Of a stretch of DNA of 64,000 nucleotides, positions 16,392 to 62,165 are shown piece after piece. Below the pieces are notes generated by a model. That model had not been told where the DNA came from, made no database searches, and was given only the letters and a program-made list of their open reading frames with translations. Positions within the stretch are counted from its first letter, which is position 1; each line of letters opens with the position of its first letter. The translations under genes were made by a program, and so were the position numbers. This DNA is from Pempheris klunzingeri (lineage: Eukaryota > Chordata > Actinopteri > Acropomatiformes > Pempheridae): contig NC_092027.1 in the NCBI RefSeq assembly GCF_042242105.1, forward strand, positions 3,299,506 to 3,363,505. The letters are read 5' to 3'.

Positions 16392-19300
16392 ATGAAGACG
16401 TTCTTTATTCTGCTAGTCTGCTGTCACTTTGCATCTCAAGGCAAGATCACATTTTATACCTTTGAAATGGCTGTTTGTTTGTGAGTTTGTGTGACCCTGT
16501 TGCTGAGAGCTCAGTTTCACATTTGAATGTGGACCCATTAGGCACAGCAAGGCTAAGTATGTTTCATAAGTATGTTTCATTACATTAAAGCTTTTCTCTG
16601 TTGTGTCATGATGAACATCTTTAGAAGTATTTAACTGTGCCTATGAGTGTGAATTATTATTTATTATAACAAACAGACCCACAGAGATTTGATGACCTGA
16701 CCCCCTTGTAATTGAGTCTACACTGTGGGTTGTGGTATTGATATTTACTTTTTAAAATGATTTTGCAGTGAGTCGTGGTTGACTGAAAACACCACTGACT
16801 GTGGGTGGGAAGTGGGACATGGGAGCTGCGGTCTCTAGTCCAAGTCTTGTGCTTCCTGACAGACACGTGTCATAAATCACATGAGCACTAGAGGCCCCTG
16901 TCAGACAAACAAGGCTCATTTTCACATCACTTTAGGTGTTTGAACAGACGACTGATCATGTCCTGTTTCTGTTGAGTGTAGCCTAGTTATCAGATAATGA
17001 TTAGTGATGAGTTTTCTGCTTTTACTGCTGTTGAAGTTCAACAATACTCAATGATCACTAGTCAATAATGGAGAAGATAAGATGTTCCTTTATTAGTCCA
17101 ACGACAGGGACATTTATTTATATGTTGCATGTAAAACATGAATTATGAAGTAAGAAGAAACCATAGCTGTTAAATAAATGTAGTGGAGTAAAAAATACAA
17201 TATTTGATGCAGAAATGTGGTGGAGTAGAAGTGGCATAGAAGATATTACTTCAATACAAGTACAAGTACTTTGAGTTCAGTGCTCATGTAATGTATTTTG
17301 TCACATTCAACCACTGCATCTATGCATCAGTAAATGTGAGCAAGTGAACACTGATGAGCTTCAGTGGTGGAGGAGGTGGTGAGATCATTTACTGAAAGTA
17401 AAAGCTGCATTAGAAAGAATACTGCATCACCAGTAAAAAGTAAAAGTCCTGCATTAAAACAGCAGTCTGTTTGGAAAATATAGATAAACTTTCAAAAGTA
17501 AAGGTCCTCAAAGTAAAGAAGAATCAATCATATTCTATAAACTGATGAAATGACATATGTGGTGTCTCCAGCTGTCACATTAGTGGAGAGCAGTAGTTCA
17601 GTGGACTTAGACTGAGACGGTCTTTATTGATCCCCCATAGGGGGGAATTCACATGTTACAGCAGCAACAAGTAATAGAAACAAGAAATAAAGAAAACAAC
17701 AGTAGAAAATAAGCAATAGTAAATAAATATGTTGTAATGATAAATGAATATTTACACTATGGACATAAATGTACATGTATGAGACAGGAATATGAAATGA
17801 ATGGAATGATAACGTGACGACCATCACACACACAATGATGTAAAAAAAACCAAACTTTTTTGTCCCACAGTGAAACACTCCATGAAGTATGCCGTCACCG
17901 AATCCTCTGGAGTCCCGGACTTCCCAGAGTTTGTGGCTGTTGCACTGGTTGATGAAGTCCAGGTGGGCTACTGTGACAGCAACATCAGGAGAGCAGAATT
18001 CAAACTGGACTGGGTGAAGAAAATAGTAGATGACGATCCACATCTCTTGGAGTGGCACACTCAAGAGTGTATAACCCATCACTACTTCTTCAAAGACCTC
18101 AGAGAGAGCTTAAAGCAGCGCTTAAACAAAACTGGAGGTACGGTATATAACATGTAACATATCACTTTATGTGTGCACACACTCACAGTGCCTGTACATA
18201 TGTGTTTTATTCATGTACATCTTGATCTGGACATGTAATCATTCACACACCTGACTGATGCACACGGCCACAATATAAATAATATCATTTGGATCTGTGA
18301 GCTCAAATCATGTCATTGGTGCCTTTAATTCATGTGTTACTGCTACTATGATATCATTTTAGTGAACCACAGTTATTCCATTGGTCGTATCTTCTCTTAA
18401 GCTTTAACTTGTTATTTTCTTGAGCTTTTATTATCTTTTACATGCAATTTAATGTTGTTGTGCCTTCTGTCTGAAAGGTGCTACACAAATAAATGTGCCT
18501 TGCCTTTATCCTTAATGGAGCCTCCTTTCAGAGTCTTCCTCTGTTTTCTCAGTTTACAGTAGTACAAGGGTTAAGATAGTAGTAGAGTGTCAATTATATA
18601 CAAAGATAACCAGCAATGGGAAGAGGGTCGATGTTCTGTTTTTGTTGTTTCTTGTATAGTTTAATCATTGGTACAATAAAATCAAACTTGTGAAGTTACG
18701 TAAAGCGTGTGGTGTGATATCAGCCACTAATAACTGACTCTCACTCTGACGTAGTGCAGTCTCTGTCTCTCCCTCCTCAGATATCAGCATTGTCCAGCAG
18801 ATGGGCGGCTGCGAATGGGACGATGAAACCGGAGAGGTTGTCAGTTTCAGTCAGTATAGTTATGATGGAGAAGACTTCATAGCTCTGGACCTGAAGACAA
18901 TGACTTGGATTGCTCTAAAACCAGAGGCCGTCCTCACCAAACACAAGTGGGACAGTGAAAGGGCTCGATTGAACTTCATTAAAATCTACCTCACTGAGCA
19001 AATTCCTGAGTGGCTGAAGAAGATTTTGGACTATGGGAAGAGCTTTCTGCTGAGAACAGGTAGAGTAACATTACAATGAACATGAACCACATGTAGAGAT
19101 ACACTGTATGTAATTCTCTGTCTCTCTCCCTCCAGACCTTCCCGAAGTGTCTCTCCTCCAGAAGTCTCCCTCCTCTCCAGTCACCTGCCACGCTACAGGT
19201 TTCTACCCTAACGCAGCCATGATGTTCTGGAGGAAAGGTGGAGAGGAGCATCATGAGGGCGTGACCCTCGGAGAGATCCTCCCCAACAACGATGGATCCT

Positions 19301-19932
19301 TCCAGACGAGCGTTGACCTCAAACTTTCATCAGTCACACCTGAAGACTGGAGCAGGTACGACTGTGTGTTTCGGCTCTCTGGTTTGAAGGACGACATCGT
19401 CACCAAACTGGACAAAGCAGTGATCAGGACCAACTGGGGTAAGACAGGAATCTGGACTTCACAGTGACTGTGTATTAAACAGAGATAACGTCTGTGCAGT
19501 TAACACTGAGATCTTCTTTATAGGCCTATACTGTTAGTCCTGTGTTAGCGATATGAAGCGTTTACATCAGCACAGGGGTAACAAATGCAACTATTAAAGG
19601 AAACCAAAACTGCTTCTGTGCTCACTTAAATACATTTTGTTCCACACCTGCTTTTTCACATCATTATCTCCATGTAGTTGAACTATAAGTGGCTCCAATA
19701 TCAGGTCCATGCAGTATTATAGTGTTCATGTTTTGTTTTGCCTCCAGTTTCTCCCTCTGAGCTTTCTGCTGGTCCTGTCATCGGAGTTGTTGTAGGACTA
19801 CTGCTCCTCCTGGCACTCTGCATCGCAGGACTCTTCAACTGGAAAAGGAACAACCATGGCAACGGAGAAAGATGCTTCTGCTCGTCACGAAGCCATTTTC
19901 ATTCCACTGTCTCAGCACAGATGTCAGACTAG
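16392..19932 (+). CDS. MHC class I heavy chain, gene 2 (lacks alpha2 Cys164; GC donor after leader)
   Basis: Exons: leader 16392-16440 ([16 protein letters not shown]), alpha1 17871-18137, alpha2 18781-19059, alpha3 19136-19438, TM plus tail 19748-19932; 360 residues, all in phase. The leader exon is followed by GCAAGA, not GTAAGA, so the gene needs a GC-AG intron. Alpha1 keeps KYAVTESSG (Tyr7), YCDSN, QECITHH and sequon NKT. Alpha2 keeps Cys101, Thr143 and Trp147, but Cys164 is Ile (TEQIPEW) and Tyr171 is Ile (KKIL). Alpha3 carries the [13 protein letters not shown] version. The TM ([20 protein letters not shown]) is followed by a 30-residue tail with CFC. The stop is followed at once by a LINE tail. 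Poly(A) signal candidate at 20778-20783. Near-identical to gene 6 from alpha1 on. No copy of the leader A/CCAAT/CRE promoter precedes it, so its promoter is unknown. Confidence 0.82.
17614..17720 (-). repeat. L2-type LINE tail in intron 1, duplicated in genes 2, 4, 5 and 8
   Basis: On minus the unit ends GGGGGATCAATAAAGACCGT, the L2-type 3' terminus. Copies lie at about 28741-28850 (gene 4), 35954-36065 (gene 5) and 60107-60220 (gene 8). Gene 6 lacks it: its intron jumps from TTCAGTGGAC straight to GTGATGACCC near 45861. All copies sit at the same site, so this is one insertion followed by duplication. Confidence 0.55.
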
Positions 19933-21831: not shown

Positions 21832-24262
21832 ATGAAAAAGTTATTTTTGTTGCTTGTCTTTTGTGACGTTTCATCACCAGGTGAGATCACATTTTACAGC
21901 AGACTCTGAATAACTGAACAGAACTGAACAACTGAATAAGACTATATGATTTCACAGAGTCATACTGAGTACATCGTATTAATAATGATATTTATGTAAA
22001 CCTTGTTTGTCCTGCAGTGAAACACTCCCTGAAGTACTACGTCACTGCATCTTCTGGAGTCCCAAACTTCCCAGAGTTTGTGGCTGCTGCAGTGGTTGAT
22101 GAAATTGTGGTTGGTTACTGCGACAGCAACAAAAAGATTGTAGAACCAAAACTGGACTCTGGAAAGAAGTACTTTGAAAAAGATCCTCAGCGGTTGGAGT
22201 GGTACAATCGAGAGTGTGCTGAGATTCAGCCTAACTTCTTCAAAGCCATGATTAACAGTTTGAAGCAGCGCTTCAACCAAAGTGGAGGTACAGTCTATGC
22301 TATGTTATATTTCACATTTTACTGCCAAACTGTTCAGCACCTTGGTTGTTGTTAAGGTGATCCTCTTCAGGGCTGTTGAACAGTTATATTTCTGCCACTT
22401 TCCAACAACTGATGCTTTTAAAAAGCCAGTGGGAGCAAACACTGCTGTGCTGGGATTTATTTTTGTATATAATGTTTTCATTTATATATTTTGACAACAC
22501 ATCCTTTTTGTGCAGGAATATAACAAAGGTTATCATAAACCTTAAGTTGTGGGGCGACACACACTAGTGTGACTTTGTGTCTAAAGTTTATACAGTTTGG
22601 TGTGTACAGAATGAAAGACAACAAAATCATTAAAAAAAAGTTTTATCACTCTTTGAAATAAAATGTGCACTGATTAAATGCTCTTGAATCATAAATACAC
22701 CACAAGACTTTCCACTGGAGACCTCATCTGTACATCGTTGTTAATTACAGTCTCTGTTTCTGTCTCTCAGCCATCCACATCATACAGAGGACCAATGGCT
22801 GTGAGTGGGATGATGAGACTGGAGACGTTAACGCTTTTATGCAGTTTGGTTACGGTGGAGAAGACTTCATAGCATTTGACCTGAACACGTTGACGTGGAT
22901 CGCCCCGAACCCACAGGCTGTCATCACCAAACACAGATGGGATGCTGAGAAAGCTGAACTAAAACACCATGAGATATACCTCACTCAGATTTTTCCTCAG
23001 TGGCTGAAGAAGTATTTGGGCTTTCTCAAGAGCTCTCTGCTGAGAACAGGTAGCAACACGTGACCCGATGTTCATACAGCCTCTTCAGGCTGAACTTCCA
23101 GTGTGATATCACTCCAGTCTGACGTTACTTTCTTCCCTCCTCAATTAGATGAGACATTTTTGGGTGCTATTACATTATATATAAATAGGGAGCTTCTCTC
23201 ATGGTCATGTTGCATTGACATGTTTCTGGACAAAGAAAGGGATTACAATTTTGTGTTGTGACAAATGGAGGATCATTTATATTATTTTGATTTTTTTCTA
23301 CATGCTTGCAAAGGAGGTGAGTCACTGTGCGTAACAATGTGATATCTTTCAGCTCGTTTCACACGTCTTTAATTGGGTCTTTTTATCTATTTCAGAATTA
23401 GATTTTTTTTTCATCATTGACTTGCTTCATCTTTGTCCATCTTTGGTTTCCTTCTGTTTGCCCTTAATTATCTTTCTCTACTAAGGTCCCCCACCCTCTC
23501 TCTCTCCCTCCAGACCTTCCCAAAGTGTCTCTCCTCCAGAAGTCTCCCTCCTCTCCAGTCACCTGCCACGCTACAGGTTTCTACCCTAACGCAGCCATGA
23601 TGTTCTGGAGGAAAGATGGAGAGGAGCATCATGAGGACGTGACCCTCGGAGAGATCCTCCCCAACAACGATGGATCCTTCCAGACGAGCGTTGACCTCAA
23701 ACTTTCATCAATCACATCTGAAGACTGGAGCAGGTACGACTGTGTGTTTCGGCTCTCTGGTGTGAAGGACGACATCGTCACCAAACTGGACAAAGCAGTG
23801 ATCAGGACCAACGAAGGTAAGACTGAGAGTAAAGGGTGCTGATTGGGACTGTATGTCTGTGGTTTGTTGAGTAATTTAGATTTTGGCAATAATGAAACCT
23901 GCAAAACCTGCTTTTATTCCATTGAAGTGTTTAAGTTACATGTTTTATTTGTTTATGATGTATTCATTCATTCATTTAAGGGTCAGTGTCTTTCAAGTCC
24001 AACACACTGGGGGTTTAATATGTCTTTAGAGACACACATGTATGTGTGAATAGATCATTGGATGGATGTACTTCTGTTCTAACCTGCTTCATCTGTGCTG
24101 GTCTTCATTTTTTGTTCCTGTTCAACAGAGAAGCCCACTGACATGACCACCCCCATTTCTGCTGCTGTGGCTGTTCTCGCTCTCCTCCTCATCGCTGCCA
24201 CTGGATTCATCATTTACAAAAGGATGCAAGCTGAGAGAGCTAGGCAAAGATTAGCTCATTAA
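21832..24262 (+). CDS. MHC class I heavy chain, gene 3 (compact, short tail)
   Basis: Exons: leader 21832-21880 (MKKLFLLLVFCDVSSP), alpha1 22018-22287 (one codon longer than other groups), alpha2 22771-23049, alpha3 23514-23816, TM and tail 24129-24262; 344 residues. Intron 1 is only 137 bases, against 0.9-3.4 kb in the others. Alpha1 has KYYVTASSG (Tyr7), YCDSNKK, RECAEI and sequon NQS. Alpha2 has Cys101 ([10 protein letters not shown]), but Cys164 is Phe (LTQIFPQW); Tyr171 is kept (KKYL). The TM (ISAAVAVLALLLIAATGFII) ends KRMQAERARQRLAH-stop. The donor used by genes 4 and 5 at this spot (GAGGTAGG) reads GAGCTAGG, so splicing to the tail exons is lost and the exon runs to a stop. Poly(A) candidate AATAAA 24566-24571. 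Twin of gene 7. Confidence 0.87.
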
Positions 24263-24828
24263 TTGACCTTAATTTGAAATGCTTTCATTCTGATTGCAAA
24301 ATTGATCCGTTTCTCCACTCCACAACTTGAAGCGCTGTAAGAGCCTGAGAGTCATGATAATATGACAACACCATGATGAGGTGGGAGAGATGTGCTAAGA
24401 AAAGAAGCAAAGGTTGAAACAGAAGGGTAAATAATGTATTTATTTAGAAATGCACTTTTCAGTTTGACAGAGTAGAAGAGACAATCACTGTTAACAAAAG
24501 ATATTCTGGCTCTTACAACTGTTCTACTGAAATCATGTGTCTTGTTTTGCAGCTAAATGCCTGCAAATAAAAACAGTGCAGCACCTTCATTAACAGCAGC
24601 TTCCCTTGCTTGTCTTTCCTCCTCTAACTGAACTGATGGTGAACAGTACACACACTTGTCTGTGCAGGTTGTTTCTGGAGTCTGCCTGATATGAAACTTT
24701 AATTTAGCAAAGTCTGCACTCTGCCCTCCAACTATCAGTTATATTAAAATGTGTCCAGATTAAAAATACAACGTTTTCTGTCGCTCATGTTTCTCACCTG
24801 TCCTGCTGCAGTCTGACTGTAGCAGTGC

Positions 24829-25589: not shown

Positions 25590-28500
25590 ATGAAGAAGGC
25601 TTTTGTGCTGCTGGTCCTGTGTCACTTTGCATCAACAGGTAAGATGTTACAACCTGTAAAAGTCGTTTAGTTTGGCCTCGTTTTTTGTCTCTTTTTGTTT
25701 TTGTTTGTTATTATTATTATTCTTATTATTAAAAGTCGATACATGACAAAACTATGCACATATGTGCTTTAGTTTAATTGACTTTAATTAAACTCGTGAT
25801 CGTGGTGCAGAAAACTTTTGTGGTTAAAGAAACCAACCTTGGCTGTTGCTTTTTTGATCAAACGCCCAATGCTGTCTTTTTAAAATGGCACCACCTATTT
25901 GTATTTGGGTGTAGCATAATCAAATGTCAGAACTGTATTACAGTAATTCCAACATATTGATCAAGGCTTCCTCAACAATAATTACATCAATATGCAATTA
26001 CAAAATGAGCAGATCTCAAATAAGAGGTGTACGCTATCATTTCCTGTCTATTAGAAATGATTGTGGACTGGCCATCCTCATCACCAGCTACAACCAAACC
26101 AAAATACTAGTTATGGGAATGGATCCATATTCTTTTTCAGCACGTAGTCATTTAAATACTTTACTGTACGTATACATTCCCCACTATACAATTATAATAT
26201 ACATGGACAGAAATCCAAGAATAAGCATTTTTCATCATATTCATATTGTCACATTTATGTATGTATTTTATAGGAGGACTAAAAGAGCTTGCACACTGTT
26301 CAAGGTAGAGACATACAACAAATTACATTTACTGCATTTATCCAGAACCACACTGTGTTCAACCACACTGCCAGAACTTTTTCTTATCTTCACCTGTTTG
26401 TTTTTTCCACCTGTTAAAACAGGTTTGTTCTTGTGATGAGGATTTGATGAATCTATAGTGACAGTAATTTCTTAGAAATGTGGAGATCTTGAGGAATAAT
26501 TGACTAAATTCCACACTGCATTGGGAGGAAAGGAAATGCTGTAACATAAAAGGTAAAGAAAAAGAACATTATTATTATATTGTTTCTCTTTTGTCACAAA
26601 AAGAAATGCATTCATTAGTTATTTAATTATTAAATAAAAATAATGTCAATGAAACAGACAGAAAAAGCAAAATGAACAGATACCATGCTCCCCCAGCCAA
26701 ATGATAACAGAGATAAGATGTGCTGGTAATCCTGGAGTCAGAAAGTGTCTCATGACAACACTGCTGGTTGTCAGGGACTGGAATTAAAGAGAAAGAGAGC
26801 CACAGTTGTTCTGCTCTGTAGATTAATGGCTAATGTAATGCCTGAGAGTTCATCTTAACTGCAGTGGGCAGATGTTTAAAGGAGGTGATGATCTTCATCC
26901 TGACTGTGTTACACTGAACACTGTGACCACTGTTTGGTGAAGACAGAATCAGCCATGCCACCAAACTGGACACCAGGAAATGTTCTATGTTCTACAGGTG
27001 TTGCAACAGTTTTGATTTATTCAGATCAGTTTTATATACTAGACTAGATTAAAGATACATTTATCAGGTACAGTGAACATTACATTATTCAGTTCACTTA
27101 ATTTTCTGAAGGTTGCCCACTTGCTTTCACATCACTCATAAACTCAGCTGGTGTTTTTTCCACAGAGGTGCACTTGAAATGTTTTCATTGATTGATATGT
27201 AATTCTGAATGGTGTGTGTATAAATCCGGTTTGTCACAATAAGGGTCATGAAGAAAATGTCCCTATAGGTGTGTCCTTTATCGGGGCTTCAATTTCCTCT
27301 TCCCAGCCAAACCAGTATCCAGTAGGACCAACATGCCTGTGCTAAGATACACAGTATGTGGAGCTGATGAGTGGTCACTGGCTGAACTTCTGGTCTGCAG
27401 TCGGTATTTTTTATTCTACATCAGACAGAAAGCAAAACTGACTTCCAGCCAGACAGTCACGTCTCATCAAATGAGGAAACGGCTCTGGACATGTGTACCA
27501 GCTGGACTCGGTCCTTCAGCTTTTCTTTTTTATCGAGACAATATGAAGACGTTCTTTATTCTGCTAGTCTGCTGTCACTTTGCATCTCAAGGCAAGATCA
27601 CATTTTATACCTTTGAAATGGCTGTTTGTTTGTGAGCTTGTGTGACCCTGTTGCTGAGAGCTCAGTTTCACATTTGAATGTGGACCCATTAGGCACAGCA
27701 AGGCTAAATATGTTTCATAAGTATGTTTCATTACATTAAAGCTTTTCTCTGTTGTGTCATGATGAACATCTTTAGAAGTATTTAACTGTGCCTATGAGTG
27801 TGAATTATTATTTATTATAACAAACAGACCCACAGAGATTTGATGACCTGACCCCCTTGTAATTGAGTCTACACTGTGGGTTGTGGTATTGATATTTACT
27901 TTTTAAAATGATTTTGCAGTGAGTCGTGGTTGACTGAAAACACCACTGACTTGTCTTATCTCGTCCAAGTCACGTGCTTCCTGACAGACACGTGTCATAA
28001 ATCACATGAGCACTAGAGGCCCCTGTCAGACAAACAAGGCTCATTTTCACATCACTTTAGGTGTTTGAACAGACGACTGATCATGTCCTGTTTCTGTTGA
28101 GTGTAGCCTAGTTATCAGATAATGATTAGTGATGAGTTTTCTGCTTTTACTGCTGTTGAAGTTCAACAATACTCAATGATCACTAGTCAATAATGGAGAA
28201 GATAAGATGTTCCTTTATTAGTCCAACGACAGGGACATTTATTTATATGTTGCATGTAAAACATGAATTATGAAGTAAGAAGAAACCATAGCTGTTAAAT
28301 AAATGTAGTGGAGTAAAAAATACAATATTTGATGCAGAAATGTGGTGGAGTAGAAGTGGCATAGAAGACATTACTTCAATACAAGTACAAGTACTTTGAG
28401 TTCAGTGCTCATGTAATTTATTTTGTCACATTCAACCACTGCATCTATGCATCAGTAAATATGAGCAAGTGAACACTGATGAGCTTCAGTGGTGGAGGAG

Positions 28501-30255
28501 GTGGTGAGATCATTTACTGAAAGTAAAAGCTGCATTAGAAAGAATACTGCATCACCAGTAAAAAGTAAAAGTCCTGCATTAAAACAGCAGTCTGTTTGGA
28601 AAATATAGATAAACTTTCAAAAGTAAAGGTCCTCAAAGTAAAGAAGAATCAATCATATTCTATAAACTGATGAAATGACATATGTAGTGTCTCCAGCTGT
28701 CACATTAGTGGAGAGCAGTAGTTCAGTGGACTTAGACTGAGACGGTCTTTATTGATCCCCCATAGGGGGAAATTCACATGTTACAGCAGCAACAAGTAAT
28801 AGAAACAAGAAATAAAGAAAACAACAGTAGAAAATAAGCAATAGTAAATAAATATGTTGAAATGATAAATGAATATTTACGCTATGGACATAAATGTACA
28901 TGTATGAGACAGGAATATGAAATGAATGGAATGATAACGTGACGACCCATCACACACACAATGATGTAAAAAACCTTTTTGTCCCACAGTGAAACACTCC
29001 ATGAAGTATGCCGTCACCGGATCCTCTGGAGTCCCAGACTTCCCAGAGTTTGTGGGTGTTCTGCTGGTTGATGAAGTCCAGGTGGGCCACTGTGACAGCA
29101 ACATCAGGAGAGTAGAATTCAAACAGGACTGGGTGAAGAAAATAGAAGTTGACGATGCACATTTCATTGAGTGGCACTCTCAAGAGTGTTTAAACAGTCA
29201 CTACTTCTTCAAACACTTCAGAGAGAGCTTAAAGCAGCGCTTAAACAAAACTGGAGGTACGGTATATAACATGTAACATATCGCTTTATGTGTGCACACA
29301 CTCACAGTGCCTGTACATATGTGTTTTATTCATGTACATCTTGATCTGGACATGTAATCATTCACACACCTGACTGATGCATACGGCCACAATATAAATA
29401 ATATCATTTGGATCTGTGAGCTCAAATCATGTCATTGGTGCCTTTAATTCATGTGTTACTGCTACTATGATATCATTTTAGTGAACCACAGTTATTCCAT
29501 TGGTCGTATCTTCTCTTAAGCTTTAACTTGTTATTTTCTTGAGCTTTTAATTTCTTTTACATGCAATTTAATGTTGTTGTGCCTTCTGTCTGAAAGGTGC
29601 TACACAAATAAATGTGCCTTGCCTTTATCCTTAATGGAGCCTCCTTTCAGAGTCTTCCTCTGTTTTCTCAGTTTACAGTAGTACAAGGGTTAAGATAGTA
29701 GTAGAGTGTCAATTATATACAAAGATAACCAGCAATGGGAAGAGGGTCGATGTTCTGTTTTTGTTGTTTCTTGTATAGTTTAATCATTCGTACAATAAAA
29801 TCAAACTTGTGAAGTTATGTAAAGCGTGTGGTGTGATATCAGCCACTAATAACTGACTCTCACTCTGACGTAGTGCAGTCTCTGTCTCTCCCTCCTCAGA
29901 TATCAGCATTGTCCAGCAGATGGTCGGCTGCGAATGGGACGATGAAACCGGAGAGGTTGTCAGTTTCAATCAGTATAGTTATGATGGAGAAGACTTCATA
30001 GCTCTGGACCTGAAGACAATGACTTGGATTGCTCCAAAACCACAGGCCGTCCTCACCAAACACAAGTGGGACAGTGACAGGGCTCGATTGAACATCATTA
30101 AAATCTACCTCACTGAGCACTTTCCTGAGTGGTTGAAGAAGATTTTGGACTATGGGAAGAGCTTTCTGCTGAGAACAGGTAGAGTAACATTACAATGAAC
30201 ATGAACCACATGTAGAGATACACTGTATGTAATTCATTGTTTCTCACTTTGTGTA

Positions 30256-30309
<54 letters not shown>

Positions 30310-31600
30310 CAGACCGTCCCAAAGTGTCTCTCCTCCAGAAGTCTCCCTCCTCTCCAGTCACCTGCCACGCTACAGGTTTCTACCCTAACGCAGCCATGAT
30401 GTTCTGGAGGAAAGATGGAGAGGAGCATCATGAGGGCGTGACCCTCGGAGAGATCCTCCCCAACAACGATGGATCCTTCCAGACGAGTGCTGACCTGAAA
30501 GCACCAGGAGCATCTGAAGACTGGGGGAGCTACGAATGTGTGTTTCAGCTCTCTGGTGTCGAGGACAACATCGTCACCAAACTGGACAAAGCAGTGATCA
30601 GGACCAACGAAGGTAAGACTGAGAGTAAAGGGTCCTGATTGGGACTGTTGGGACCAATTTAGATGAATTCATCTTCCAAAAACTAATAGTGATTATTAAT
30701 TACACCAGCTCAGAATAATATGGAACAAAGCCAATAATGAAACCTGCAAAACCTGCTTTTATTCCATTGAAGTGTTTAAGTTACATGTTTTATTTGTTTA
30801 TGATGTATTCATTCATTCATTTAAGGGTCAGTGTCTTTCAAGTCCAACACACTGGGGGTTTAATATGTCTTTAGAGACACACATGTATGTGTGAATAGAT
30901 CATTGGATGGATGTACTTCTGTTCTAACCTGCTTCATCTGTGCTGGTCTTCATTTTTTGTTCCTGTTCAACAGAGAAGCCCACTGACATGACCACCCCCA
31001 TTTCTGCTGCTGTGGCTGTTCTCGCTCTCCTCCTCATCGCTGCCACTGGATTCATCATTTACAAAAGGAAGCAGGCTGAGAAAGGTAGGCAAAGATTAGC
31101 TCATTAATTGACCTTAATTTAGTCTTAAAGTCAATTCTGACACATCCGTTTCTCCACTCCACAACTTGAAGCGCTGTAAGAGCCTGAGAGTCATGATAAT
31201 ATGACAACACCATGATGAGGTGGGAGAGATGTGCTAAGAAAAGAAGCAAAGGTTGAAACAGAAGGGTAAATAATGTATTTATTTAGAAATGCACTTTTCA
31301 GTTTGACAGAGTAGAAGAGACAATCACTGTTAACAAAAGATATTCTGGCTCTTACAACTGTTCTACTGAAATCATGTGTCTTGTTTTGCAGCTAAATGCC
31401 TGCAAATAAAAACCTACTTTTATTTCATTTCAGCTGATCTGACTCACACTTTATGATGCAAATTAAAAAAGAGTTTTAAACTCAAGACTGTAGTCTATAT
31501 TTACTGTCTGTAAAAGTTTGTTTCTGACCTTACAGCTCCTGACAGCAGCACTGAGCTCTCTGAAGATGAACCCAGACATCTGATGGATGAACACACTTAG
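25590..31600 (+). CDS. MHC class I heavy chain, gene 4 (chimeric; two candidate leader exons)
   Basis: Exons: leader A 25590-25638 ([16 protein letters not shown], normal GTAAG donor), alpha1 28990-29256, alpha2 29900-30178, alpha3 30313-30612, TM 30974-31084, last exon 31536-31600; 356 residues. A second leader (B) lies at 27543-27591 in intron 1. Alpha1 has Tyr7 (KYAVTGSSG), HCDSN, QECLNSH and sequon NKT. Alpha2 has Cys101 but Phe for Cys164 (TEHFPEW) and Ile for Tyr171. Alpha3 carries the LKAPGASEDWGS version, one codon shorter. The TM is of the gene 3/7 type, so the gene joins a gene-2-like front to a gene-3-like back. The tail ends SEDEPRHLMDEHT. Two other acceptors in the same phase, at 31392 and 31434, could give alternative tails. 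Poly(A) candidate at 31622-31627. Intron 1 lacks the ISRE seen in genes 1, 5, 6 and 8. Confidence 0.87.
27543..27591 (+). other. leader exon B with GC donor inside gene 4 intron 1
   Basis: Encodes [16 protein letters not shown], the same leader exon as gene 2, and is followed by GCAAGA. It could be an alternative first exon of gene 4 or a decayed one. An open frame extends about 70 codons upstream of its ATG but has no recognisable similarity. Confidence 0.6.
30257..30305 (+). repeat. (CT)n microsatellite in the alpha3 acceptor tract of gene 4
   Basis: A pure CT dinucleotide run that ends eight bases before the alpha3 exon and forms its polypyrimidine tract. Genes 2, 6 and 8 have only a short CT run at this place. 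Confidence 0.9.
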
Positions 31601-32148: not shown

Positions 32149-32149
<1 letters not shown>

Positions 32150-36300: not shown

Positions 36301-37465
36301 GGCTACTGTGACAGCAACATCAGGAGAGTAGAATTCAAACAGGACTGGGTGAAGAAAATAGTAGTTGACGATGCACATCTCATGGAGTGGCACACTCAAG
36401 AGTGTTTAAACAGTCACTACTTCTTCAAAGACCTCACAGCGAGCTTAAAGCAGCGCTTAAACAAAACTGGAGGTACGGTATATAACATGTAACATATCAC
36501 TTTATGTGTGCACACACTCACAGTGCCTGTACATATGTGTTTTAATCATGTACATCTTGATCTGGACATGTAATCATTCACACACCTGACTGATGCACAC
36601 GGCCACAATATAAATAATATCATTTGGATCTGTGAGCTCAAATCATGTCATTGGTGCCTTTAATTCATGTGTTACTGCTACTATGATATCATTTTAGTGA
36701 ACCACAGTTATTCCATTGGTCGTATCTTCTCTAAAGCTTTAACTTGTTATTTTCTTGAGCTTTTAATTTCTTTTACATGCAATTTAATGTTGTTGTGCCT
36801 TCTGTCTGAAAGGTGCTACACAAATAAATGTGCCTTGCCTTTATCCTTAATGGAGCCTCCTTTCAGAGTCTTCCTCTGTTTTCTCAGTTTACAGTAGTAC
36901 AAGGGTTAAGATAGTAGTAGAGTGTCAATTATATACAAAGATAACCAGCAATGGGAAGAGGGTCGATGTTCTGTTTTTGTTGTTTCTTGTAATCATTCGT
37001 ACAATAAAATCAAACTTGTGAAGTTATGTAAAGCGTGTGGTGTGATATCAGCCACTAATAACTGACTCTCACTCTGACATAGTGCAGTCTCTGTCTCTCC
37101 CTCCTCAGATATCAGCATTGTCCAGCAGATGGGCGGCTGCGAATGGGACGATGAAACCGGAGAGGTTGTCGGTTTCAATCAGTATAGTTATGATGGAGAA
37201 GACTTCATAGCTCTGGACCTGAAGACAATGACTTGGATTGCTCCAAAACCAGAGGCCGTCCTCACCAAACACAAGTGGGACAGTGAAAGGGCTCGATTGA
37301 ACTCCACTAAAATCTACCTCACTGAGCACTTTCCTGAGTGGCTGAAGAAAATTTTGGACCATGGGAAGAGCTTTCTGCTGAGAACAGGTAGAGTAACAAT
37401 ACAATGAATATGAACCACATGTAGAGATACACTGTATGTAATTCATTGTTTCTCACTTTGTGTAC

Positions 37466-46100: not shown

Positions 46101-47974
46101 TGGCACTCTCGTGAGTGTTTAAACAGTCACTACTTCTTCAAACACTTCAGAGAGAGCTTAAAGCAGCGCTTAAACAAAACTGGAGGTACGGTATATAACA
46201 TGTAACATATCACTTTATGTGTGCACACACTCACAGTGCCTGTACATATGTGTTTTATTCATGTACATCTTGATCTGGACATGTAATCATTCACACACCT
46301 GACTCATGCACACGGCCACAATAAAATCATTTGGATCTGTGAGCTCAAATCATGTCATTGGTGCCTTTAATTCATGTGTTACTGCTACTATGATATCATT
46401 TTAGTGAACCACAGTTATTCCATTGGTCGTATCTTCTCTTAAGCTTTAACTTGTTATTTTCTTGAGCTTTTATTATCTTTTACATGCAATTTAATGTTGT
46501 TGTGCCTTCTGTCTGAAAGGTGCTACACAAATAAATGTGCCTTGCCTTTATCCTTAATGGAGCCTCCTTTCAGAGTCTTCCTCTGTTTTCTCAGTTTACA
46601 GTAGTACAAGGGTTAAGATAGTAGTAGAGTGTCAATTATATACAAAGATAACCAGCAATGGGAAGAGGGTCGATGTTCTGTTTTTGTTGTTTCTTGTATA
46701 GTTTAATCATTGGTACAATAAAATCAAACTTGTGAAGTTATGTAAAGCGTGTGGTGTGATATCAGCCACTAATAACTGACTCTCACTCTGACGTAGTGCA
46801 GTCTCTGTCTCTCCCTCCTCAGATATCAGCATTGTCCAGCAGATGGGCGGCTGCGAATGGGACGATGAAACCGGAGAGGTTGTCACTTTCAATCAGTATA
46901 GTTATGATGGAGAAGACTTCATAGCTCTGGACCTGAAGACAATGACTTGGATTGCTCCAAAACCAGAGGCCGTCCTCACCAAACACAAGTGGGACAGAGA
47001 CAGGGCTCGATTGAACTTCAATAAAATCGACCTCACTGAGCACTTTCCTGAGTGGCTGAAGAAGGGTTTGGACTATGGGAAGAGCTTTCTGCTGAAAACA
47101 GGTAGAGTAACAATACAATGAATATGAACCACATGTAGAGATACACTGTATGTAATTCATTGTCTCTCTCCCCACAGACCTTCCCGAAGTGTCTCTCCTC
47201 CAGAAGTCTCCCTCCTCTCCAGTCACCTGCCACGCTACAGGTTTCTACCCTAACGCAGCCATGATGTTCTGGAGGAAAGGTGGAGAGGAGCATCATGAGG
47301 GCGTGACCCTCGGAGAGATCCTCCCCAACAACGATGGATCCTTCCAGACGAGTGCTGACCTCAAACTTTCATCAGTCACACCTGAAGACTGGAGCAGGTA
47401 CGACTGTGTGTTTCGGCTCTCTGGTGTGAAGGACGACATCGTCACCAAACTGGACAAAGCAGTGATCAGGACCAACTGGGGTAAGACAGGAATCTGGACT
47501 TCACAGTGACTGTGTATTAAACAGAGATAACGTCTGTGCAGTTAACACTGAGATCTTCTTTATAGGCCTATACTGTTAGTCCTGTGTTAGCGATATGAAG
47601 CGTTTACATCAGCACAGGGGTAACAAATGCAAGTATTAAAGGAAACCAAAACTGCTTCTGTGCTCACTTAAATACATTTTGTTCCACACCTGCTTTTTCA
47701 CATCATTATCTCCATGTAGTTGAACTATAAGTGGCTCCAATATCAGGTCCATGCAGTATTATAGTGTTCATGTTTTGTTTTGCCTCCAGTTTCTCCCTCT
47801 GAGCTTTCTGCTGGTCCTGTCATCGGAGTTGTTGTAGGACTACTGCTCCTCCTGGCACTCTGCATCGCAGGACTCTTCAACTGGAAAAGGAACAACCATG
47901 GCAACGGAGAAAGATGCTTCTGCTCGTCACGAAGCCATTTTCATTCCACTGTCTCAGCACAGATGTCAGACTAG
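43159..47974 (+). CDS. MHC class I heavy chain, gene 6 (inverted class I fragment in intron 1)
   Basis: Exons: leader A 43159-43207 (MKKAFVLLVLSHFAST), alpha1 45919-46185, alpha2 46823-47101, alpha3 47178-47480, TM and tail 47790-47974; 360 residues, all in phase. Alpha1 has Tyr7 (KYAVTGSSG), YCDSNSR, RECLNSH and sequon NKT. Alpha2 has Cys101, but Phe for Cys164 (TEHFPEW), Gly for Tyr171 (KKGL), and Asp in place of the usual Tyr in the helix (KIDLTEHF, against KIYLTEHF in genes 4 and 5). Alpha3 carries [13 protein letters not shown] and the TM is the gene 2 type with the CFC tail; poly(A) candidate 48820-48825. Intron 1 (2.7 kb) contains about 1.26 kb of gene-3/7-type sequence in reverse, which a correct transcript must splice out. 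From alpha1 on it is the twin of gene 2, but with leader A and a full promoter. Confidence 0.85.
43279..43292 (+). promoter_or_regulatory. ISRE in intron 1 of gene 6
   Basis: AGTTTCACTTTCAC, perfect consensus match, 72 bases past the leader exon, as in genes 5 and 8. Confidence 0.55.
44424..45685 (-). pseudogene. inverted partial class I gene (gene 3/7 type) in intron 1 of gene 6
   Basis: Reverse complement of the stretch from the alpha1-alpha2 intron to the alpha3-TM intron of a gene 3/7-type gene (like 50476-51977). It holds an intact alpha2 exon at 45060-45338 (minus) and the 3' half of alpha3 at 44540-44698. The 5' half of alpha3 and part of the intron before it are gone. The alpha3 donor reads GCAAGA instead of GTAAGA. 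It replaces the part of intron 1 that in gene 5 runs from about 34556 to 35778. No leader, alpha1 or TM is present, so it cannot make a class I chain. Confidence 0.88.
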
Positions 47975-49878: not shown

Positions 49879-52310
49879 ATGAAAAAGTTATTTTTGTTGC
49901 TTGTCTTTTGTGACGTTTCATCACCAGGTGAGATCACATTTTACAGCAGACTCTGAATAACTGAACAGAACTGAACAACTGAATAAGACTATATGATTTC
50001 ACAGAGTCATACTGAGTACATCGTATTAATAATGATATTTATGTAAACCTTGTTTGTCCTGCAGTGAAACACTCCCTGAAGTACTACGTCACTGCATCTT
50101 CTGGAGTCCCAAACTTCCCAGAGTTTGTGGCTGCTGCAGTGGTTGATGAAATTGTTGTTGGTTACTGCGACAGCAACAAAAAGATTGTAGAACCAAAACT
50201 GGACTCTGGAAAGAAGTACTTTGAAAAAGATCCTCAGCGGTTGGAGTGGTACAATCGAGAGTGTGCTGAGATTCAGCCTAACTTCTTCAAAGCCATGATT
50301 AACAGTTTGAAGCAGCGCTTCAACCAAAGTGGAGGTACAGTCTATGCTATGTTATATTTCACATTTTACTGCCAAACTGTTCAGCACCTTGGTTGTTGTT
50401 AAGGTGATCCTCTTCAGGGCTGTTGAACAGTTATATTTCTGCCACTTTCCAACATCTGATGCTTTTAAAAAGCCAGTGGGAGCAAACACTGCTGTGCTGG
50501 GATTCATTTTTTGTATATAGTGTTTTCATTTATATATTTTGACAACACATCCTTTTTGTGCAGGAATATAACAAAGGTTATCATAAACCTTAAGTTGTGG
50601 GGCGACACACACTAGTGTGACTTTGTGTCTAAAGTTTATACAGTTTGGTGTGTACAGAATGAAAGACAACAAAATCATTAAAAAAAAGTTTTAACACTCT
50701 TTGAAATAAAATGTGCACTGATTAAATGCTCTTGAATCATAAATACACCACAAGACTTTCCACTGGAGACCTCATCTGTACTTCATTGTTAATTACAGTC
50801 TCTGTTTCTGTCTCTCAGCCATCCACATCATACAGAGGACGAATGGCTGTGAGTGGGATGATGAGACTGGAGACGTTAACGCTTTTATGCAGTTTGGTTA
50901 CGGTGGAGAAGACTTCATAGCATTTGACCTGAACACGTTGACGTGGATCGCCCCGAACCCACAGGCTGTCATCACCAAACACAGATGGGATGCTGAGAAA
51001 GCTGAACTAAAACACCATGAGATATACCTCACTCAGATTTTTCCTCAGTGGCTGAAGAAGTATTTGGGCTTTCTCAAGAGCTCTCTGCTGAGAACAGGTA
51101 GCAACACGTGACCCGATGTTCATACAGCCTCTTCAGGCTGAACTTCCAGTGTGATATCACTCCAGTCTGACGTTACTTTCTTCCCTCCTCAATTAGATGA
51201 GACATTTTTGGGTGCTATTACATTATATATAAATAGGGAGCTTCTCTCATGGTCATGTTGCATTGACATGTTTCTGGACAAAGAAAGGGATTACAATTTT
51301 GTGTTGTGACAAATGGAGGATCATTTATATTATTTAGCTTTTTTTCTACATGCTTGCAAAGGAGGTGAGTCACTGTGCGTAACAATGTGATATCTTTCAG
51401 CTCGTTTCACACGTCTTTAATTGGGTCTTTTTATCTATTTCAGAATTAGATTTTTTTTTCATCATTGACTTGCTTCATCTTTGTCCATCTTTGGTTTCCT
51501 TCTGTTTGCCCTTAATTATCTTTCTCTACTAAGGTCCCCCACCCTCTCTCTCTCCCTCCAGACCTTCCCAAAGTGTCTCTCCTCCAGAAGTCTCCCTCCT
51601 CTCCAGTCACCTGCCACGCTACAGGTTTCTACCCTAACGCAGCCATGATGTTCTGGAGGAAAGATGGAGAGGAGCATCATGAGGACGTGACCCTCGGAGA
51701 GATCCTCCCCAACAACGATGGATCCTTCCAGACGAGCGTTGACCTCAAACTTTCATCAATCACACCTGAAGACTGGAGCAGGTACGACTGTGTGTTTCGG
51801 CTCTCTGGTGTGAAGGACGACATCGTCACCAAACTGGACAAAGCAGTGATCAGGACCAACGAAGGTAAGACTGAGAGTAAAGGGTCCTGATTGGGACTGT
51901 ATGTCTGTGGTTTGTTGAGTATTTTAGATTTTGGCAATAATGAAACCTGCAAAACCTGCTTTTATTCCATTGAAGTGTTTAAGTTACATGTTTTATTTGT
52001 TTATGATGTATTCATTCATTCATTTAAGGGTCAGTGTCTTTCAAGTCCAACACACTGGGGGTTTAATATGTCTTTAGAGACACACATGTATGTGTGAATA
52101 GATCATTGGATGGATGTACTTCTGTTCTAACCTGCTTCATCTGTGCTGGTCTTCATTTTTTGTTCCTGTTCAACAGAGAAGCCCACAGACATGACCACCC
52201 CCATTTCTGCTGCTGTGGCTGTTCTCGCTCTCCTCCTCATCGCTGCCACTGGATTCATCATTTACAAAAGGAAGCAGGCTGAGAGAGCTAGGCAAAGATT
52301 AGCTCATTAA
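49879..52310 (+). CDS. MHC class I heavy chain, gene 7 (compact, short tail)
   Basis: Exons: leader 49879-49927 (MKKLFLLLVFCDVSSP), alpha1 50065-50334, alpha2 50819-51097, alpha3 51562-51864, TM and tail 52177-52310; 344 residues. Twin of gene 3: only a few residue changes are visible (alpha3 SSITPEDW against SSITSEDW; tail KRKQ against KRMQ). Alpha2 has Cys101, with Phe for Cys164 (LTQIFPQW) and Tyr171 kept. As in gene 3, the TM exon donor reads GAGCTAGG, so translation ends RARQRLAH. Unlike gene 3, the downstream tail exon with SEDEPRHLMDEHT is still there at 52725-52789 but cut off from the donor. Intron 1 is 137 bases. Poly(A) candidate 52811-52816. The promoter is not of the CCAAT/CRE type. 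Confidence 0.87.
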
Positions 52311-57551: not shown

Positions 57552-60500
57552 ATGAAGAAGGCTTTTGTGCTGCTGGTCCTGAGTCACTTTGCATCAACAG
57601 GTAAGATGTTACAACCTGTAAAAGTCGTTTTGTTTGGCCTCAATCCTGCGCCACACTCTCACAGGAGTTATAGTTTCACTTTCACTTTTTAGTCACACTG
57701 ATCTCACAATAATGCCACTGACATTATTATTATTATTATTCTTATTATTAAAAGTCGATGCATGACAAAACTATGCACATATGTGCTTTAGTTTAATTGA
57801 CTTTAATTAAACTCGTGATCGTGGTGCAGAAAACTTTTGTGGTTAAAGAAACCAACCTTGGCTGTTGCTTTTTTGATCAAACGCCCAATGCTGTCTTTTT
57901 AAAATGGCACCACCTATTTGTATTTGGGTGTAGCATAATCAAATGTCAGAACTGTATTACAGTAATTCCAACATATTGATCAAGGCTTCCTCAACAATAA
58001 TTACATCAATATGCAATTACAAAATGAGCAAATCTCAAATAAGAGGTGTACGCTATCATTTCCTGTCTATTAGAAATGATTGTGGACTGGCCATCCTCAT
58101 CACCAGCTACAACCAAACCAAATACTAGTTATGGGAATGGATCCATATTCTTTTTCAGCCCGTAGTCATTTAAATACTTTACTGTACGTATACATTCCCC
58201 ACTATACAATTATAATATACATGGACAGAAATCCAAGAATAAGCATTTTTCATCATATTCATATTGTCACATTTATGTATGTATTTTATAGGAGGACTAA
58301 AAGAGCTTGCACACTGTTCAAGGTAGAGACATACAACAAATTACATTTACTGCATTTATTTTTTGTATGCATTTTATTTTTGATGAATCAATAGTGACAG
58401 ACATAGTGCACTGAAAAGACTAATAAAAAGAATAATTGACTAAATTCCACACTGCATTGGGAGGAAAGGAAATTCTGTAACATAAAAGGTAAAGAAAAAG
58501 AACATTATTACTATATTGTTTCTCTTTTGTCACAAAAAGAAATGCATTCACTAGTTATTTAATTATTAAATAAAAATAATGTACAATATGAACGGTCAGT
58601 ATCAGGGTGTCAATGAAACAGACAGAAAAAGCAAAATGAACAGATACCATGCTCCCCCAGCCAAATGATGACAGAGATAAGATGTGCTGGTAATCCTGGA
58701 GTCAGAAAGTGTCTCATGACAACACTGCTGGTTGTCAGGGACTGGAACATTTTTCAGCGTTCAATCTTGTTTCATAAATAAAATCTGTTTGTATTTTTTC
58801 ATTCCTTGTCCAGTTTTTATCAGATGACTTCTGTCCCTAATAGTGCAGAAAAAATAGTAATTTAGCAAGTCTTTCTCCTTTCCAACAAAACACGTCCTTC
58901 ACTATTGTAATCAAAGAGAAAGAGAGCACAGTCGTTCTGCACTGTAGATTAATGGCCAATGTACTGCCTGAGAGTTAGGGTTAGGGTCAGTTTCACATTT
59001 GAATGTGGACCCATTAGGCACAGCAAGGCTTGTTGCTACTTTAACTAGATATCATAAAAAGAAACTCCTTGTCTGCTATAAGAGTTGATAAGAGAATTAA
59101 GTATGTTTCATTACATTAAAGCTTTTAGAAGTATTTAACTGTGCCTATAAAACAAAACATCCTCACATGTGAATTATTATTTATTATAACAAACAGACCC
59201 ACAGAGATTTGATGACCTGACCCCCTTGTAATTGAGTCTACACTGTGGGTTGTGGTATTGATATTTACTTTTGCAGATGATTTTGCAGTGAGTCGTGGTT
59301 GACTGAAAACACCACTGACTTGTCTTATCTCGTCCAAGTCTTGTGCTTCCTGATGGACACGTGTCATAAATCACATGAGCACTAGAGGCTCCTGTCAGAC
59401 AAACAAGGCTCATTTTCACATCACTTTAGGTGTTTGAACAGACGACTGATCATGTCCTGTTTCTGTTGAGTGTAGCCTAGTTATCAGATAATGATTAGTG
59501 ATGAGTTTTCTGCTTTTACTGCTGTTGAAGTTCAACAATACTCAATGATCACTAGTCAATAATGGAGAAGATAAGATGTTCCTTTATTAGTCCAACGACA
59601 GGGACATTTATTTATATGTTGCATGTAAAACATGAATTATGAAGTAAGAAGAAACCATAGCTGTTAAATAAATGTAGTGGAGTAAAAAATACAATATTTG
59701 ATGCAGAAATGTGGTGGAGTAGAAGTGGCATAGAAGATATTACTTTAATACAAGTACAAGTACTTTGAGTTCAGTGCTCATGTAATTTATTTTGTCACAT
59801 TCAACCACTGCATCTATGCATCAGTAAATGTGAGCAAGTGAACACTGATGAGCTTCAGTGGTGGAGGAGGTGGTGAGATCATTTACTGAAAGTAAAAGCT
59901 GCATTAGAAAGAATACTGCATCACCAGTAAAAAGTAAAAGTCCTGCATTAAAACAGCAGTCTGTTTGGAAAATATAGATAAACTTTCAAAAGTAAAGGTC
60001 CTCAAAGTAAAGAAGAATCAATCATATTCTATAAACTGATGAAATGACATATGTGGTGTCTCCAGCTGTCACATTAGTGGAGAGCAGTAGTTCAGTGGAC
60101 TTAGACTGAGACGGTCTTTATTGATCCCCCATAGGGGGAAATTCACATGTTACAGCAGCAACAAGTAATAGAAACAAGAAATAAAGAAAACAACAGTAGA
60201 AAATAAGCAATAGTAAATAAATATGTTGTAATGATAAATGAATATTTACACTATGGACATAAATGTACATGTATGAGACAGGAATATGAAATGAATGGAA
60301 TGATAACGTGACAATGATGTAAAAAACCTTTTTGTCCCACAGTGAAACACTCCATGAAGTATTTCTTCACTGAATCCTCTGGAGTCCCAGACTTCCCAGA
60401 GTTTGTGGGTGTTGCACTGGTTGATGAAGTCCAGGTGGGCCACTGTGACAGCAACATCAGGAGAGTAGAATTCAAACTGGACTGGGTGAAGAAAATAGTA

Positions 60501-62165
60501 GATGACGATCCACATCTCTTGGAGTGGCACTCTCAAGAGTGTATAACCCATCACTACTTCTTGAAACACTTCAGAGAGAGCTTAAAGCAGCGCTTAAACA
60601 AAACTGGAGGTACGGTATATAACATGTAACATATCACTTTATGTGTGCACACACTCACAGTGCCTGTACATATGTGTTTTATTCATGTACTTGTACATTC
60701 TTGCGTCTGAAAGGTGCTACACAAATAAATGTGCCTTGCCTTTATCCTTAATGAAGCCTCCTTTCAGAGTCTTCCTCTGTTTTCTCAGTTTACAGTAGTA
60801 CAAGGGTTAAGATAGTAGTAGAGTGTCAATTATATACAAAGATAACCAGCAATGGGAAGAGGGTCGATGTTCTGTTTTTGTTGTTTCTTGTATAGTTTAA
60901 TCATTCGTACAATAAAATCAAACTTGTGAAGTTATGTAAAGCGTGTGGTGTGATATCAGCCACTAATAACTGACTCTCACTCTGACATAGTGCAGTCTCT
61001 GTCTCTCCCTCCTCAGATATCAGCATTGTCCAGCAGATGGCCGGCTGCGAATGGGACGATGAAACCGGAGAGGTTGTCAGTTTCAATCAGTATAGTTATG
61101 ATGGAGAAGACTTCATAGCTCTGGACCTGAAGACAATGACTTGGATTGCTCCAAAACCACAGGCCGTCCTCACCAAACACAAGTGGGACAGTGAAAGGGC
61201 TCAATTGAACTTCATTAAAATCTACCTCACTGAGCAAATTCCTGAGTGGCTGAAGAAGGGTTTGGACTATGGGAAGAGCTTTCTGCTGAGAACAGGTAGA
61301 GTAACATTACAATGAACATGAACCACATGTAGAGATACACTGTATGTAATTCTCTGTCTCTCTCCCTACAGACCTTCCCAAAGTGTCTCTCCTCCAGAAG
61401 TCTCCCTCCTCTCCAGTCACCTGCCACGCTACAGGTTTCTACCCTAACGCAGCCATGATGTTCTGGAGGAAAGGTGGAGAGGAGCATCATGAGGGCGTGA
61501 CCCTCGGAGAGATCCTCCCCAACAACGATGGATCCTTCCAGACGAGCGTTGACCTGAAAGCACCAGGAGCATCTGAAGACTGGGGGAGCTACGAATGTGT
61601 GTTTCAGCTCTCTGGTTTGAAGGACGACATCGTCACCAAACTGGACAAAGCAGTGATCAGGACCAACTGGGGTAAGACAGGAATCTGGACTTCACAGTGA
61701 CTGTGTATTAAACAGAGATAACGTCTGTGCAGTTAACACTGAGATCTTCTTTATAGGCCTATACTGTTAGTCCTGTGTTAGCGATATGAAGCGTTTACAT
61801 CAGCACAGGGGTAACAAATGCAAGTATTAAAGGAAACCAAAACTGCTTCTGTGCTCACTTAAATACCTTTTGTTCCACACCTGCTTTTTCACATCATTAT
61901 CTCCATGTAGTTGAACTATAAGTGGCTCCAATATCAGGTCCATCCAGTATTATAGTGTTCATGTTTTGTTTTGCCTCCAGTTTCTCCCTCTGAGCTTTCT
62001 GCTGGTCCTGTCATCGGAGTTGTTGTAGGACTACTGCTCCTCCTGGCACTCTGCATCGCAGGACTCTTCAACTGGAAAAGGAACAACCATGGCAACGGAG
62101 AAAGATGCTTCTGCTCGTCACGAAGCCATTTTCATTCCACTGTCTCAGCACAGATGTCAGACTAG
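57552..62165 (+). CDS. MHC class I heavy chain, gene 8
   Basis: Exons: leader A 57552-57600 (MKKAFVLLVLSHFAST), alpha1 60343-60609, alpha2 61017-61295, alpha3 61372-61671, TM and tail 61981-62165; 359 residues. Alpha1 has KYFFTESSG (Tyr7), HCDSN, QECITHH and sequon NKT. Alpha2 has Cys101, but Ile for Cys164 (TEQIPEW) and Gly for Tyr171 (KKGL). Alpha3 carries the LKAPGASEDWGS version, yet the TM and CFC-containing tail are of the gene 2/6 type, so the alpha3 block and the TM type have been reshuffled relative to genes 2, 4, 5 and 6. The intron between alpha1 and alpha2 is about 0.24 kb shorter than in gene 2 through loss near 60690. The 3' UTR is interrupted by an L2-type LINE; poly(A) candidate 63953-63958. 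Confidence 0.88.
57672..57685 (+). promoter_or_regulatory. ISRE in intron 1 of gene 8
   Basis: AGTTTCACTTTCAC, perfect consensus match, 72 bases past the leader exon, as in genes 5 and 6. Confidence 0.55.
58975..58986 (+). repeat. telomere-like TTAGGGTTAGGG at a deletion joint (gene 8)
   Basis: Same joint as in gene 5 intron 1; leader B is missing here as well. Confidence 0.7.

Follow-up and report, generated by a model that had tools for sequence, protein, structure and literature searches.

A 64,000-nucleotide stretch of the Pempheris klunzingeri genome (the window; contig NC_092027.1, C16:3299506-3363505 of a 646-Mb genome; positions below are those of the window unless preceded by C16) carries a tandem array of major histocompatibility complex (MHC) class I genes, most of which lack Cys164, one partner of the canonical Cys101-Cys164 pair of the alpha2 domain. 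Cys164 is absent from 10 of the 11 alpha2 exons of this cluster (cluster A: the array of the window plus genes 10 and 11, found at most 10 kb to the right of it), versus none of the 10 alpha2 exons found elsewhere in the genome, and it is substituted solely by hydrophobic residues, Phe or Ile. We consider that the array probably consists of functional, non-classical class I genes resembling the teleost U lineage, whose chains would be stapled in alpha1 rather than in alpha2, with Phe or Ile packing on Cys101.

Distribution of the Cys164 loss

Class I landmarks were sought in all six frames of the window, and alpha2 exons were counted genome-wide by a PF00129 search, a search with the alpha2 of gene 3 and local tblastn of fetched stretches. 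These gave at least 21 places, the search counts being lower bounds: cluster A (n=11), cluster B (n=7; C16:3.535-3.614 Mb, minus strand), cluster C (n=2; 4.88-4.90 Mb) and a single place, D, at 1.636 Mb. Lineage assignments for B, C and D are assumed, D being presumably Z-like. Proteasome-family exons, some with stops, lie between clusters A and B at C16:3.519-3.530 Mb, a placement that fits the teleost MHC class I region as described in an excerpt of PMC4364491.

In the eight plus-strand alpha2 exons of the window, residue 164 is Cys in gene 1 (codon TGC), Phe in genes 3, 4, 5, 6 and 7 (TTT) and Ile in genes 2 and 8 (ATT), just as the original prediction had read them. The latter, whose span of 18781-61295 corresponds to the start of the gene 2 alpha2 and the end of the gene 8 alpha2, had counted eight class I genes. 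This is right for the plus strand, but a ninth alpha2 exon, a minus-strand fragment with Phe164 (TTT), and genes 10 and 11, both with Phe164, were not listed. Cys101 is present in all nine alpha2 exons of the window (as TGC or TGT among the eight of the plus strand). The alpha2 of B1, in cluster B, is split over frames, with its Cys still visible. A nearby compensating cysteine, named beforehand as an observation that would undo the claim, was looked for in alpha2 and none is present: each Cys164-less exon has a single Cys, which rules out a second alpha2 cysteine as a replacement partner.

In the parts of these sources that were available, Cys101 and Cys164 are listed among the class I residues kept since jawed fishes and canonical across vertebrates (PMC12028091), the alpha2 bond is described as well conserved in MHC class I and class II alike (PMC8236899), and two frog species have it conserved across 27 alleles (PMC3684511). 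No teleost class I molecule without Cys164 is reported among the matches listed in the literature search, as far as their excerpts go. The loss does not expel the genes from the MHC class I superfamily, since their domain order, with an alpha1-alpha2 groove, a C1 alpha3 and a membrane segment, supports membership.

Below, the full Cys164-less genes are genes 2-8, 10 and 11 (n=9), and the full cluster A genes are these and gene 1 (n=10). Group I comprises genes 2, 4, 5, 6, 8 and 11, and group II genes 3, 7 and 10, joined in alpha2 by the ninth exon (copy 9); gene 1 stands apart. The exons of the array are as follows; for membrane exons, the coordinates are those of the enclosing open frame.

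11432..11480, plus: gene 1 leader exon, GT donor
12400..12666, plus: gene 1 alpha1 exon, Cys36, Cys67
13189..13467, plus: gene 1 alpha2 exon, both Cys101 and Cys164, internal control; PF00129 E 3.1e-21
13588..13890, plus: gene 1 alpha3 exon
14371..14553, plus: gene 1 membrane exon, within open frame
16392..16440, plus: gene 2 leader exon, GC donor CAAG/GCAAGA
17870..18136, plus: gene 2 alpha1 exon, Cys36/Cys67
18780..19058, plus: gene 2 alpha2 exon, Cys101, Ile164; PF00129 E 1.6e-19
19135..19437, plus: gene 2 alpha3 exon, C1-set by Pfam
19723..19929, plus: gene 2 membrane exon, within open frame
21832..21880, plus: gene 3 leader exon
22017..22286, plus: gene 3 alpha1 exon, Cys36/Cys67
22770..23048, plus: gene 3 alpha2 exon, Cys101, Phe164; PF00129 match
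23513..23815, plus: gene 3 alpha3 exon
24083..24259, plus: gene 3 membrane exon (second type), within open frame
25590..25638, plus: gene 1-type leader exon upstream of gene 4
27543..27591, plus: gene 4 leader exon, gene 2 type, GC donor CAAG/GCAAGA
28989..29255, plus: gene 4 alpha1 exon, Cys36/Cys67
29899..30177, plus: gene 4 alpha2 exon, Cys101, Phe164
30312..30611, plus: gene 4 alpha3 exon
30928..31104, plus: gene 4 membrane exon (second type), within open frame
33314..33362, plus: gene 5 leader exon (gene 1 type)
36205..36471, plus: gene 5 alpha1 exon, Cys36/Cys67
37108..37386, plus: gene 5 alpha2 exon, Cys101, Phe164
37533..37832, plus: gene 5 alpha3 exon
38149..38325, plus: gene 5 membrane exon (second type), within open frame
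43159..43207, plus: gene 6 leader exon (gene 1 type)
44541..44696, minus: partial alpha3 of the gene fragment
45061..45339, minus: ninth alpha2 exon, gene fragment, Cys101, Phe164
45918..46184, plus: gene 6 alpha1 exon, Cys36/Cys67
46822..47100, plus: gene 6 alpha2 exon, Cys101, Phe164
47177..47479, plus: gene 6 alpha3 exon
47765..47971, plus: gene 6 membrane exon, within open frame
49879..49927, plus: gene 7 leader exon
50064..50333, plus: gene 7 alpha1 exon, Cys36/Cys67
50818..51096, plus: gene 7 alpha2 exon, Cys101, Phe164
51561..51863, plus: gene 7 alpha3 exon
52131..52307, plus: gene 7 membrane exon (second type), within open frame
57552..57600, plus: gene 8 leader exon (gene 1 type)
60342..60608, plus: gene 8 alpha1 exon, Cys36/Cys67
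61016..61294, plus: gene 8 alpha2 exon, Cys101, Ile164
61371..61670, plus: gene 8 alpha3 exon
61956..62162, plus: gene 8 membrane exon, within open frame

An additional cysteine pair in alpha1 and altered groove residues

All ten cluster A alpha1 exons, including that of gene 1, carry two cysteines, Cys36 and Cys67, which occur together in none of the nine alpha1 exons of clusters B and C; only the second is present in B1 and B5, and C2 has a different lone Cys. These residues occupy exon positions 35 and 67 and were equated with the numbering of PMC4364491 by hand alignment to HLA. According to the available passages of PMC4364491 and PMC4810163, such a pair occurs in P molecules and in part of the U molecules, where a bond from sheet to helix is proposed. 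Five AlphaFold models were made of the gene 2 alpha1 exon; the best one, with a mean predicted local distance difference test (pLDDT) of 81.8, has residue 35 (Cys36) in a strand and residue 67 in the helix. Each of the nine full Cys164-less genes has five ectodomain cysteines, one of which must therefore be unpaired, and gene 1 has six; among the eight B and C genes counted (B1 left out), six have four and two (B5 and C2) have five. The Cys36-Cys67 pair may make the alpha2 bond dispensable.

In classical class I molecules, the peptide ends are anchored by Tyr7, Tyr59, Arg84, Thr143, Lys146, Trp147, Tyr159 and Tyr171. All ten full cluster A genes retain Tyr7, Arg84, Thr143, Trp147, Trp167 and the N86 sequon. 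On the other hand, residue 59 is His, Leu, Phe or Arg in all ten, versus Tyr in 7/8 of the B and C genes, residue 171 is Ile or Gly in the six group I genes, and Tyr159 is replaced in gene 6. The complete classical anchor set is not found in cluster A, and cluster B looks more classical. The replacement of Tyr59 throughout, and of Tyr171 in group I, points to a non-classical function. The proposal of non-classical chains with an unpaired Cys101, already made in the original prediction, is supported by the changes at residues 59 and 171 (non-classical look) and by the five ectodomain cysteines of the nine genes (an unpaired Cys). In overall sequence, the gene 2 alpha2 is 53-60% identical to six cluster B and C genes and 33% identical to the Z-like gene.

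Integrity and divergence of the copies

The alpha1, alpha2 and alpha3 frames are open in all nine full Cys164-less genes. Acceptor and donor sites of these three exons, as well as leaders and membrane frames, were located for all eight plus-strand genes of the window, and leaders also for genes 10 and 11. A leader of the gene 1 type lies upstream of genes 4, 5, 6 and 8, while genes 2 and 4 have a GC-donor leader. Decay through missing leaders, considered for genes 5, 6 and 8, was rejected on finding their gene 1-type leaders 2.8-2.9 kb upstream of alpha1. The alpha2 exons of genes 1, 2 and 3 score above the PF00129 cut-off; the gene 2 alpha1 alone falls below it (19.6 vs 28.3 bits).

Of the six alpha1/alpha2 comparisons among genes 1, 2 and 3, five have an omega whose bootstrap interval stays below 1; the sixth, the alpha2 of genes 1 and 3, has 0.66 (0.36-1.30). 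For alpha2, where the original prediction had proposed a test of purifying selection, omega between groups is below 1 (gene 2 vs gene 3: 0.30, CI, confidence interval, 0.12-0.58), whereas within-group intervals mostly include 1. Against cluster B, omega in alpha1 is 1.31 (0.81-2.38) for gene 3 and B5 and 0.62 (0.37-1.10) for gene 2 and B5; in alpha2 it is 0.40 and 0.42, with intervals below 1.

Within group I, the pooled ratio of nonsynonymous to synonymous differences (pN/pS; 15 pairs, not independent) is 1.82 in alpha1, 2.59 in alpha2 and 0.75 in alpha3, and the minimum nonsynonymous:synonymous counts are 33:4 (alpha1) and 23:2 (alpha2). The corresponding pN/pS values of clusters B and C together are 4.0, 0.72 and 3.37, the last on few changes. 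In genes 2, 4, 5, 6 and 11, variable sites number 12/629 in the alpha1-alpha2 intron, 35/267 in alpha1 (p 1e-10) and 22/279 in alpha2 (p 3.5e-5). Like the sequence states, the exon structure and the genome distribution, these protein-over-intron differences in most group I genes are direct observations. In addition, 25 of the 45 variable sites fall in the 65 of 182 positions that we take to line the groove, an approximate list (p 0.0014), a preference carried by alpha1 (p 0.003 by itself, against 0.12 for alpha2); the varying sites include 164 itself (Ile/Phe) and 163 (Gln/His). The open frames and the copies bear out the earlier description of the genes as intact and copied. The loss was there taken to be tolerated or selected; protein-level diversification of the copies seems to go beyond mere tolerance, with mixed statistical support.

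Possible origin and role of the loss

The array could have arisen from a change of the ancestral Cys164 codon, once or twice, in the simplest case from TGT to TTT (Phe), with Cys101 staying in place; some copies would then have passed from TTT to ATT (Ile). A strand-to-helix Cys36-Cys67 disulfide in alpha1 would staple the groove in place of the alpha2 bond, while the large hydrophobic residue 164 would fill the space over the unpaired Cys101, so that the chain could still fold. With Tyr59 and, in group I, Tyr171 replaced, the groove end that normally holds the peptide N-terminus would be loosened or reshaped, allowing other ligands, or peptides bound in another way, and a copy-by-copy diversification. 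We infer from the sequence that the alpha1 bond forms and compensates and that the proteins are expressed, and the identity of such ligands would likewise be a matter of inference.

Several observations weigh against this reading. Gene 1 combines the alpha1 pair with Cys164, showing that the pair does not force the loss, and the association of pair and loss is confined to one cluster and is not independent evidence; since compensation is deduced from this very co-occurrence, it is weakened by gene 1. The four other alpha1 models of gene 2 reach a mean pLDDT of only 63.7-70.4. For the alpha2 exon by itself the model is weak (pLDDT 64.3; predicted template modelling score 0.42), and the 50 matches that Foldseek listed for it are all class I or class I-like, at a root-mean-square deviation of about 7 Å and none at E <= 0.001. 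Gene 2 depends on a GC-donor leader, the only one found for it. The pN/pS excess is not specific to the groove, given the alpha3 value of clusters B and C. Count tests of the amino-acid excess are weak (binomial p 0.12 for alpha1, 0.10 for alpha2 and 0.028 together), and the exon-over-intron excess loses significance (p 0.098 and 0.78) once gene 8 is added, because the intron of that gene carries a divergent stretch. Finally, a broken alpha2 disulfide in HLA reportedly leads to low expression (Hirv 2006, from its title as cited in PMC6542842). The allele is presumably A*30:14L, which lost one partner of the bond.

This precedent and the weak count tests also speak for relaxed constraint, under which the genes would be dispensable, poorly expressed duplicates in early decay that lost Cys164 without selection; so do the omega intervals spanning 1 within groups, the fragment copy in the array and the split alpha2 of the class I gene B1 in the neighbouring cluster. 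We regard such decay as rather unlikely. Indeed, all nine full Cys164-less copies keep, besides open alpha1-alpha3 frames, Cys101, the alpha3 cysteines, Arg84 and the N86 sequon, the replacements at 164 are solely hydrophobic, and the greater divergence of alpha1 and alpha2 over the intervening intron in five of the six group I genes argues against simple decay.

A bolder form of the alpha1-staple proposal, which we hold to be unlikely, is that the staple moved from alpha2 to alpha1 and left the alpha2 helix region permanently reduced and loose, a state that classical chains may adopt only transiently, during loading. The free Cys101 would then be put to use, as a covalent ligand site, in dimers or in redox control, while the groove residues diversify. 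A multi-copy, open-frame set of class I genes without the alpha2 bond, beside a gene 1 that has it, would let the need for this bond be tested directly. Whether folding, loading and ligand choice require the alpha2 bond, and whether an alpha1 bond can replace it, could be addressed here.

Kinship of the copies and number of losses

The copies are not independent. The alpha2 exons of 3, 7, 9 and 10 are 99-100% identical to each other, those of 4, 5, 6, 8 and 11 are 88-94% identical to gene 2, and both alpha1 and alpha2 trees of cluster A resolve gene 1, group I and group II, the alpha2 of the two groups differing by about 40% in protein. Therefore, while the state described earlier for seven genes is real, the copies fall in two sequence groups and the Cys164 losses are, on this sequence grouping, one or two, not seven. 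The alpha1 tree joins groups I and II, whereas the alpha2 tree joins gene 1 and group II, each with a bootstrap of 77. A joint tree of 18 genes (B1 and copy 9 left out) gives support values of 40/1 for groups I and II together, with approximately unbiased (AU) p values of 0.487 and 0.378 for the two other arrangements; being compatible with all three, it was rejected as a decisive tree for one versus two losses. Among Cys164-less codons, TTT is one step and ATT two steps from TGT, and the group II codons beside 164 still resemble cluster B.

In contrast to alpha1 and alpha2, the alpha3 tree mixes the clusters. The alpha3 of B and C genes is 83-86% identical to that of gene 1, versus 48-57% in alpha1 and 54-63% in alpha2 (B1 aside; C2 alpha2 scored against gene 2, not gene 1). 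Either domain-wise gene conversion across 0.2-1.5 Mb or a stronger constraint on alpha3 would be consistent with this likeness. The minus-strand fragment (45061-45339 and 44541-44696) is inverted and, along 956-990 bases, shares 99% identity with blocks surrounding genes 3 and 7; its alpha2 is intact, its alpha3 partial, and no alpha1 was found by local tblastn.

Exon shuffling and gene conversion in a rapidly turning-over array might simply have spread an odd alpha2 exon by hitch-hiking, the genes being functional and the loss functionless. The alpha3 likeness across A, B and C, the recent copying seen in the inverted blocks and in the near-identical copies 3, 7, 9 and 10, and the mixing among copies of three leader types and two membrane/cytoplasmic exon types (genes 1, 2, 6 and 8 versus genes 3, 4, 5 and 7) would all agree with this. 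However, a loss present in two alpha2 groups so different in protein is not recent, the Phe/Ile variation came after it, and none of the Cys164-less copies has reverted to Cys, which makes hitch-hiking quite improbable. Sequencing error is very unlikely as the cause, since the loss is shared by two diverged groups and involves two different residues; near-identical tandem copies can be mis-assembled, but the same pattern, in open exons, leaves an assembly or annotation artefact a negligible chance.

Flanking elements

Six TGACGTCA sites (25361, 25400, 33152, 42958, 42997 and 57390) occur in the window, versus 0.7 expected. Each is found near CCAAT in front of a gene 1-type leader (genes 4, 5, 6 and 8), at an upstream distance of 162-229 bases, and we take them to resemble the X2/CRE promoter element; being mutual copies, they were not used as evidence of expression. 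The same four leaders are each preceded, at a distance of about 280-310 bases, by a minisatellite with an 11-base unit, CTCTCTCTAGT/TTGT (alternative readings 13, 24 and 35), of a length that varies per copy (24828-25283, 32336-33038, 42035-42880 and 56003-57273).

Two further open frames flank genes 1-8. That at 8773-9309 (minus strand) has a signal-like start and a histidine-rich repeat, features reminiscent of SLC39A7, a zinc transporter of the MHC region; it matched no Pfam family. The other, at 62239-63135 (plus strand), follows closely on the gene 8 membrane frame and is a piece of a retrotransposon, with a reverse transcriptase match (RVT_1, E 1.4e-10).

Comparison with known class I systems

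The array is probably closest to teleost U molecules with extra alpha1 cysteines, of which ON3 is named in an excerpt of PMC4364491: it shares alpha1 Cys36 and Cys67 and a location near proteasome genes, and its sequence may be U-like. The available passages on U molecules with extra alpha1 cysteines, supplementary alignments excluded, do not report a loss of Cys164. The P lineage resembles the array in its alpha1 Cys36/Cys67, found here in all ten genes, and in its non-classical groove residues, but, according to the same excerpt of PMC4364491, it keeps the alpha2 cysteines, and P molecules are 11-33% identical to other lineages, against the 53-60% identity of the gene 2 alpha2 to clusters B and C. 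Molecules of the H lineage also have an ectodomain off the class I consensus; however, as described in part of PMC6769792, this lineage lost alpha3 and stretches of alpha1 and alpha2. All ten full cluster A genes have alpha1, alpha2 and alpha3. The broken-disulfide state of HLA, for its part, concerns a low-expression allele, whereas here it is found in ten tandem Phe/Ile copies along with an alpha1 cysteine pair.

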